Source: Maylandia zebra (lineage: Eukaryota > Chordata > Actinopteri > Cichliformes > Cichlidae). From it: DNA of 64,000 bases. Numbering within the stretch: the first letter of the stretch is position 1; the number at the start of each line of letters is the position of its first letter. Below the pieces are notes generated by a model. The model worked only from the letters and a program-made list of their open reading frames with translations, made no database searches and was not told the origin of the DNA. The position numbers and the translations under genes were made by a program. Shown here piece after piece: positions 22,787-25,700 of this stretch. The DNA is taken from NCBI RefSeq assembly GCF_041146795.1, contig NC_135180.1:38809794-38873793 (forward strand), read 5' to 3'.

Positions 22787-25700
22787 TCAGAGCGGCATTC
22801 GATTGCCTTCCACGCTGATTTTAACAGCGTGACCCGTCTTCGTCAGGCGCCGGATGTCAGCAAATCTACGCATCTGTTTATCAACACGGGACAAACTCTT
22901 CCTCACCGGACCCTGGAGGCAGACAGACACACAGAACAGGAAGTTACAGGATTTACATCTTGTAATCACACACTGAGGTAACAACACAAAGACAACCGGT
23001 TTGTTTCGCACACTTCACTGCTCATGCAGGAAGATGTTTCACAAACACCTCGTTCAGAGCCATCAGATGGGAAGACTGTTCCTAAAGACCATTTACAGTT
23101 CAAAATAAGCTTTATTTGTCTCATTCTGCCCCCTCGCTCTGTGTGAAACAAGCTGCTTTAACTCCCCTCCTCCCTGAACATCTATTTGCTTCTGATTGGA
23201 CAGCTTCTGGAAGCCTGCTGCTGGACGTGTGGCTGATTCCATATCAAAGTGAAAACATTTCTTCCTCCGGGTCAGCTGACTCATTTCTACAGTAAATGTA
23301 TTTTATTTAATGAAGCCATGCAAATTACAGGTACACTGTCCCACACACTGCACACCTTCTCACCTGTGGAACGTTACTTCCAGTCTCTTAGTGATTATCT
23401 CTCTCTAGTGCATGAGTTTGGTGTTTATTAGGCTCAGAGGTGCTCGACGGCTGCAGCAGAGATGTTCATGTGTTCATACAGCAGGAAGGAAAATGATTCA
23501 ACCCTGGGCACTGCGTATGAGGTCACATGACCTCTGAGTACATTAGTTTGTTAAAGTTAAGGTTTTGTCCGTTGGTTATGACACGATCAGAAGGTTTATC
23601 AGTGATTGGTCTGACGTTAGAGGTCTGAATGACTGAAGTGTGATCGATCGTGTGCTCTTCGCTGTGTTCAGTGAACTCTGTTTGGGGGTTGGATAACTTT
23701 GCCTCCACTGTACGTCTGCACACTGCCGGTGAGTCAGGCTCTTCACACCATGCAGACAGACTTACTGCCCCCTGCAGGGGAGCAGGGGAGCTACAGGGGC
23801 ATTCTGTTTCCCTCTATGCTGATCTTCACAGCTCCCTGCGGCCGCCCCAATTTTCTCTGCTCGGCGAAACGCCGTTTGTGCTTCTCCAGCAGGCTGATGG
23901 CCTTCTTACAGCCGCTCTACAAAGGACCAATCACAGCTCAGCTCCTGACAGCAGGTAAACTCCTTGTTCAGAGCTTTACAATCAAATAGAAGCAGAAAAT
24001 AACCCGATGTCTGTTCCAGCACAAAAGTGTTGAAGTGTTTGTTTCAACTTTATTTAAACTTCAGAAAACTGACTGTTTATATAAAAGTTCTTTATTGTTA
24101 TTCGTATTGTTTTTTCTTTAAAAACGCGTTTGCTCTTAGAGAGGTTTAAAATATATTTGTTTAATTTTGGAATTTTGTATTTGTGATTCATTTTGTAAAT
24201 CGTGAGTAAATAATTTGTTTGACTCAATTATGAAAAAACTGAAACCAAATGTTAAACTCTGGATATTTCATAGGACTGTGCCTAAAGGGGGCGCTCTGCT
24301 GTTTAGTTGAAGTGTAGCCACGCCCTGAAGCACACGCCATCGGCCCGTGTGACCACTCACCCTGCTGGAGTCCCCCTCCACGTTCCATTTGGGCCGAACC
24401 ACGTAGTCTTTGTTTGAGGGCATCGGGACTCGAGCCCGGGCGCAGAACCCGGGGTCTCCGGGCCGCAGAGCTCTGTTGGGAGCAGGCGTTCAGGTTAATG
24501 AGGGTGGAATTTAAACACGGCACAAAATTCCAGACGACAGAGGAGGAAGTTATGACAAATCCCGCCCCCAGATGTCTGAGAACTTACTTCTCCTCTCCGG
24601 TCAGCTGCTTCTCCAGGTCTCTGCGAGGCGTCTGACCTCCAGAACTACAAACAGAAGAAGAAGACATGAATTCAACTTCGAGTGTGAAGTAGCTCCGCCG
24701 CACCTCGCAGGTTTCTGAGCGATGTTCTTCACCGGCTGAGCCTCCATGCTGTTAGCAGCACGTCACTCCGAGCGAGTTAGTCGGCACCAAAACTTCCCGC
24801 ACGGAACAAACTCAGCCCTGCCCGAGCTCCACATCGTTAGGGCAATAAAACACACACGGCTAACACTGCCGTTACAGAAACAGGCTCCAGTCTCTGCTCT
24901 GTTTAACCCCTCTGTGCAGCAGCGCCCCCTAATGTCTACAGTGGATATTAAAAGTATCAGCAGCTGTGACTGTATTAGTTTGTGTCGCAGATATGGACCG
25001 AAGCTGAAATAAGGCAGTCCTCCACTCCGGTGCAGTACCAGTTTCAACCACCGGGTGGCATCCAGTCCGCCTGAAACGCGCCCAAGCTAATGTTAGCGTT
25101 TCTAAGCTGACTTATTTTGATAGCTAGATGAGCTCAGAGTGGAGGTGGTAAAAACAGAGTTACAAGAAGGGCTTGAATCAAATATAAAATCTCAGCTTCA
25201 GTCATTTTCTTTAGTTGAATCACTCTGAAATAAATGCAAAGTATTCAAACCGGCCAATTCTGCTTCATCTCACAAGCTCCACCCACCTGTTTGTGAGGAG
25301 CAGCCAATCAGAGGATACTTAGAGGAGGCTTATTTTATACTGCAAATTATGCAAACAGACTCTATTAGAGTCCAAGAATGAAAAAGGAGCTGGAAATGAG
25401 CAGAACGGGTCACCTTTAAATCGTGCAGCTGCACTCATGAAGTCATTTAAGTCTCAGGGATTCATTCTGGTCACTTTGGTGCTGCTGTGGGTATCTGAGG
25501 AGTTACTAAGCTTTAGACAGAGGGATGTAAAACCTGCAGAGACGCGTTAAAGAAGGTAAACCTGGTCACTCAGTGCAACCATGCAACGTCAGGACTGAAC
25601 CTGGTTGGTGGAGAAAAGACATCAGGTTCCTCTGCCCTCTCCACCTTCTGAGGCTGACTGGGGATGAGACGGAGGAAGAGGAGTGAAAGAGGAAAAACTA

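Follow-up and report, generated by a model that had tools for sequence, protein, structure and literature searches.

In the window, by which we mean the whole 64-kb stretch of DNA that was analysed (C14:38809794-38873793, within a 962-Mb genome of 63 contigs), the iws1 gene carries two homologous last exons that lie in tandem behind a single splice donor. Taken as a whole, the best explanation, which we regard as probable, is that they serve as alternative last exons, from which two IWS1 isoforms with differing jaw anchors would arise. According to this explanation an ancient tandem duplication would have affected the 3' end of iws1, and the two copies would have been kept behind the one donor. 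Splicing from 24361 to 23916, with cleavage at an AATAAA site upstream of 22912, would then give one tail, and splicing from 24361 to 22912 would give the other. Both tails keep the cleft peptide and most of the basic residues that face the DNA; the jaw helix of the proximal tail is altered. The choice of the last exon may accordingly set the firmness of the hold on the jaw, or the competition with RECQL5, UVSSA and ELOA. Alternative last exons with two tails had already been proposed in a sequence-only reading of this DNA. Of that proposal the homology of the exons, their age and the selection on the proximal copy are upheld by the analysis, and we infer the use of both exons, the use of the candidate poly(A) sites and an effect on jaw binding, the last of which is the weakest step of the explanation.

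The iws1 gene and its two last exons

Upstream iws1 coding exons, through the TND core, were modelled on the minus strand at 24588..27924, and more exons exist further 5'. The modelled exons from 27551 down form one continuous frame, in which the boundary at the junction 26880/26763 is placed to about one base. When the nine exons from 27551 to 24361 were followed by the proximal tail, the product could be aligned with human IWS1 472-819 (E 3e-170). It contains the TND/Med26 core (Pfam Med26, E 4.7e-15), with which the human IWS1 core aligns, as well as the IWS1/Spn1 C-terminal segment, where human 740-819 aligned unbroken save for 2 residues after R776. The last exon that is shared by both forms (24361..24472, minus strand) corresponds to human IWS1 740-776, encodes a stretch ending in ...GDSSR and finishes in phase 0 at AGG/GTGAGT. 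With position weight matrices (PWMs) from vertebrate weight tables, this donor at 24361 scored 9.9, a value reached by 0.4% of the 4177 GT sites. A DNA search of the 962-Mb genome with each tail exon returned only the self-match, and no paralogue or retrocopy was found with a 347-residue query, the 10 matches of which (best candidates scored) all lay in the gene of the window. As no second iws1 copy was found, no paralogue supplies a spare tail. In scans of bacterial/archaeal and viral contigs no true relative was found; a single match to bacterial/archaeal contigs overlapped an apparent bacterial NADH-dehydrogenase frame and was rejected as chance. In neighbouring coding stretches at 32216-34221 (plus strand) and 39780-40001 (minus strand) Pfam gave weak hits to a number of WD-repeat families and showed an exon with an ArfGAP domain.

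Within the upstream part of the gene a perfect (AC)20 array was observed at 27213-27252, which is (GT)20 on the gene strand and runs directly into the acceptor at 27210. The exon behind this acceptor (27060-27210, minus strand) measures 151 nt, which is not a multiple of 3, and the length of the repeat could affect its splicing. In tilapia a (GT)n intron marker annotated as 'IWS1 homolog isoform X3' on LG14 was associated with cold tolerance at p 0.011; what distinguishes isoform X3 is left unstated in the relevant part of that report (PMC8697892). That the tilapia marker is the same repeat as the array in the window is a guess.

The proximal last exon (23791..23916, minus strand), which encodes an altered jaw helix and a conserved cleft tail, is preceded by ...CCTTTGTAG, and the distal last exon (22787..22912, minus strand), the jaw helix of which is nearer to the human one, by ...GCCTCCAG. 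Each exon consists of 126 nt, that is 41 codons and a stop (TAG or TGA). The earlier observations that both follow the same donor at 24361 in phase 0, have the same length, are open and end in NRMPL and a stop, and that the last 12 residues of the two tails are one I/V change apart, were confirmed from the window sequence. A good acceptor had been claimed for both exons. For the distal exon this holds, its acceptor (PWM 8.8) ranking 2/125 among the AG sites from 24330 to 22700. The proximal acceptor proved to be moderate (PWM 6.9), ranking 5/125 between the same positions, a score attained by 4.9% of the strand's 4360 AG sites. The top rank in this interval is taken by an acceptor-like site at 23771 (minus strand), just past the proximal stop. 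A strong donor-like site was seen at 23363 (minus strand), 408 nt beyond it, and the two sites possibly delimit a 3' UTR exon of another isoform. The moderate proximal acceptor and the presence of these stronger sites beyond it weigh against alternative last exons.

Two further observations were made in the surroundings of the exons. The donor region at 24357-24370 and the proximal exon at 23884-23897 contain 14-nt stretches that are 93% complementary, including a perfect complement of 10 nt, a length that was reached in 9/500 shuffles. RNA pairing over the 5' splice site is a possible switch, which is kept as a mere lead because it was found post hoc among 22 inverted pairs. An 18-nt repeat upstream of both exons (23957-23974 and 23043-23060; 89%), one of 23 direct-repeat families, was judged to be chance.

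If each exon ends its own transcript, the proximal isoform would be expected to have its own 3' end signals. The sequence-only reading had noted that AATAAA words follow the proximal copy, and three are indeed present in the interval that separates the proximal stop from the distal exon (23111..23429, minus strand; starting at 23429, 23307 and 23116). They are candidate poly(A) signals for the proximal isoform. Given the density in the window 0.81 would be expected in these 878 nt (P = 0.049), and this marginal excess is only suggestive of poly(A) use. For the distal isoform a candidate signal was located about 560 nt past the stop (22222..22227, minus strand). A run of 33 T residues (22751-22783, minus strand) begins 4 nt after the distal stop, so that the distal 3' UTR opens with a U33 tract.

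The proximal exon could also act as a cassette with a built-in stop, being joined to the distal acceptor by way of the GTAAGT at 23765, whereby both transcripts would share a common 3' end. The protein outcome would be the same and the control would lie in exon inclusion instead of poly(A) choice. This reading draws on a donor-like GCA/GTAAGT (23760..23768, minus strand; boundary 23766/23765) at 25 nt past the proximal stop. With a stop 25 nt ahead of the junction, the transcript would stay under the 50-nt limit that usually applies in nonsense-mediated decay. The candidate donor is weak, however: its score (PWM 6.1) is equalled by 3.9% of the 4177 GT sites, so its proximity to a stop by chance would not be surprising, and a simpler way to the proximal isoform would be provided by the three AATAAA words that separate the exons. 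We therefore consider the cassette quite unlikely.

Homology, age and selection of the two tails

Searched against the window with tblastn, one tail found the other with E 1.4e-10 and 55% identity over 38 residues, and the human IWS1 tail, which exceeds either copy by 2 residues, found the distal exon with E 3e-15 and the proximal exon with E 1e-10. The proximal exon might be a chance open frame in an intron, a reading for which nothing but the shortness of the exon speaks; it is refuted by the match between the copies and by that of the proximal copy to the human tail, and its probability is negligible. The exons are adjacent, have the same phase and are both translatable after one upstream exon, as tandem-duplicated exons are.

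Between the two exons 63/126 nucleotides agree, with an identity of 22/41, 28/41 and 12/41 at codon positions 1, 2 and 3, respectively. As only 12/41 third positions agree, where about one quarter would be expected at random, the third positions have come close to saturation, and yet the protein has been kept. For the last 12 codons the corresponding identities are 10/12, 12/12 and 4/12. Eight third-position changes against one residue change imply that the similarity of this part is not due to recent gene conversion. These comparisons support the conclusion that the two tail exons are true homologues and old. The NG86 estimate of dN between them amounts to 0.54 for all 41 codons, 0.90 for the first 29 and 0.06 for the last 12; dS is saturated and a pairwise dN/dS can therefore not be computed. 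In a gapless three-way alignment with human 782-819, 17/38 positions are identical in all sequences. With the human tail as outgroup, 7 of the 38 positions are changed in the proximal copy only and 6 in the distal copy only, whereas at 4 positions both copies share a residue against human and at 4 all three differ. The 4 shared residues would be in keeping with a duplication that took place in the fish line once it had separated from the tetrapods, and changes on the human side match them equally well.

The sequence-only reading had argued that a freely drifting copy would hardly stay open. Considering stop codons alone this argument is weak, as 18-51% of the simulated drifting copies were stop-free. 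The exact length is the stronger part of it, and depends on the assumed indel rate of 0.1 per substitution. In a two-branch simulation, which superseded a first one that had put every change on the proximal branch, the distal copy was constrained (omega 0.1) and the proximal copy was free at an equal mutation rate (1500 runs per rate). One or other of today's copies served as the ancestor, and rates, kappa, omega and indel rate were assumed. Runs were scored for a third-position identity of at most 14 (observed 12) together with at least 21/41 shared residues (observed 21). With a freely drifting proximal copy this combination occurred with P 0 to 0.0007 (four rates, 0.3-1.0), as against 0.003 to 0.07 (four rates, 0.5-1.5) when constraint acted on both copies (omega 0.2). 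As a drifting proximal copy almost never matches the data, the copy must have been held by selection, at least until recently. The simulation and the nearly equal numbers of private changes relative to human (7 vs 6) thus support protein-level selection on the proximal copy for the greater part of its history. In the first 29 codons taken separately the contrast between codon positions was not significant (p = 0.06 and 0.07), and the case for selection consequently depends chiefly on the last 12 codons together with the comparison with human IWS1. The GC content at third positions was also considered as a sign of coding use. It is 0.76 in the proximal exon and 0.71-0.91 in six other iws1 exons, yet 0.59 in the distal exon. 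It cannot tell the possibilities apart and is not counted as evidence, since the distal exon deviates more from the other iws1 exons than the proximal one does. The GC content flanking the proximal copy is 0.31 upstream and 0.49 downstream.

A proximal copy that went out of use recently would look identical in these selection tests. It is thus conceivable that the copy was functional for long and is now a relic, unused or seldom spliced, the decay of which is yet to come. The moderate acceptor agrees with such a relic, as does the fact that R787L, M792K and I798Q in the proximal tail are non-conservative, where all six private changes of the distal tail are conservative; moreover, the comparisons average the whole history and are blind to a recent loss. 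Nevertheless, the frame, the exact length, the acceptor and the residues of the cleft tail are intact. The private changes are about equal in number, and a relative rate test against human (7 vs 6 changes, p = 1) has little power with 13 changes. A relic is in our opinion rather improbable.

The polymerase-binding segment and the difference between the tails

IWS1 has been called a core scaffold within the elongation complex. In structures of the human protein, residues 787-795 form the RPB1 jaw helix, located between the RPB1 jaw and the downstream DNA, and residues 805-819 form the RPB1 cleft tail in the RPB1/RPB5 cleft; R787, K790, R793, K794, K809 and K816 are near the DNA (PMC13175633). 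The truncated IWS1 1-786 gave a very faint elongation-complex signal and no stimulation of transcription (PMC13175633). In a second study IWS1 786-819 is interaction site 4 of the ECS domain, which restricts the downstream DNA and the loss of which abolishes stimulation (PMC12368070). RECQL5 competes with IWS1, whose site on the jaw overlaps with the UVSSA site and with a predicted ELOA1 site (PMC13175633). In the alignment the duplicated exon is the counterpart of human 777-819 and would thus encode the jaw helix together with the cleft tail, and the lobe loop and the ELOF1 belt (749-770) fall in the shared exon. The RPB2 lobe loop, the ELOF1 belt, the jaw helix and the cleft tail all have aligned counterparts here. 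The earlier suggestion that the two tails possibly have different partners can be sharpened to one predicted element, a binder of the RPB1 jaw, the RPB1-RPB5 cleft and the downstream DNA, because the exon matches the polymerase-binding segment described in these two studies (PMC13175633, PMC12368070).

The jaw helix reads RLDKQMRKF in human, RVDKQMRRF in the distal tail and LLEKHKRRF in the proximal tail. The proximal changes in the helix are R787L, D789E, Q791H and M792K, and the non-conservative I798Q is situated just past it. The cleft tail is identical in human and both copies at 807-811, 813-815 and 817-819, and the proximal tail retains K809 as well as a basic character at 816. When the helix is drawn as a wheel, centred on those residues that are reported to face the DNA, M792 falls on the side away from the DNA (173 degrees), and M792K would thus bring a charge to the predicted jaw side. 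Q791H sits at the flank and R787L removes one charge from the DNA side, with K790, R793 and a basic residue at 794 still present in the proximal helix. This model suggests that the proximal isoform would probably enter the cleft and hold the jaw differently and more weakly; that the change in the helix lowers the affinity for the jaw is a guess.

Alternatively, both exons might be used and the tails be equivalent, with the duplication serving the 3' UTR or the control of expression. The last 12 residues, which differ by one, point in this direction, and so do the net charges, which are the same (+8 for each tail and +3 for each jaw helix). However, six of the seven proximal-only changes are found at 787-798, in or just past the jaw helix, and 4/7 have a negative BLOSUM62 score; the six distal-only changes all reach +1 or higher. 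We regard equivalent tails as unlikely. If alternative last exons with different jaw anchors are indeed present, fish IWS1 may exist in two forms that act as interchangeable polymerase anchors, the choice of exon switching the occupancy of the jaw and the ease of replacement by RECQL5, UVSSA or ELOA. This more far-reaching proposal is tentative, and we would hesitate to favour it.

Relation to known systems and meaning

Tandem-duplicated terminal exons are an established kind of gene structure, and IWS1 is an unexpected protein to have them. In a survey of human substitution events between tandem-duplicated exons 77/236 swap the C-terminus, the 3' exons of TPM1 being a case (PMC9741552), and a second paper deals with first and last exons that were duplicated in tandem, giving UTR examples from Drosophila (PMC9013439). 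Like the events of the TPM1 type, the iws1 exons are adjacent and homologous, share a donor and a frame, each end the protein and are old. Unlike the events of that survey (PMC9741552), the swapped unit of iws1 is the counterpart of a polymerase-binding module, and the case is known here from genomic sequence only. IWS1 occurs 0 times in the main text of the survey, as far as this was available (PMC9741552). Both iws1 tails align without gaps with the jaw helix and cleft tail of human 782-819 as defined in the structural studies (PMC13175633, PMC12368070). In the accessible portions of these studies alternative tails are not mentioned: 'isoform' is found 0 times in PMC13175633 and twice in PMC12368070, where the instance shown is the title of a reference. 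That no description of the two tails was known agrees with our search, as they appear in no title or beginning of an abstract among the matches listed from open-access PubMed Central texts.

Different occupants of the jaw have been described for separate proteins. The brake helix of RECQL5 and the hinged helix of UVSSA use the same RPB1 jaw site; RECQL5 has bulky hydrophobic, aromatic residues against the jaw and basic residues close to the DNA, and UVSSA has an isoleucine and a valine in place of the aromatic ones (PMC12440807). The two IWS1 tails, which are likened to these helices by description, would in contrast be isoforms of one gene.

In human proteins the segment that matches the exon decides whether IWS1, a core elongation factor, stays on the polymerase. 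If the proposal of interchangeable polymerase anchors is true, an isoform switch would act on the elongation by Pol II itself. With two versions made, iws1 would moreover be a core nuclear gene with a tandem terminal exon, a case for which the literature searched gives no description. The existing reconstituted assays suit the question whether the occupancy of the jaw is tuned by splicing. If fish make two versions of IWS1, evolution would have provided a ready-made set of allowed variants of the jaw helix.
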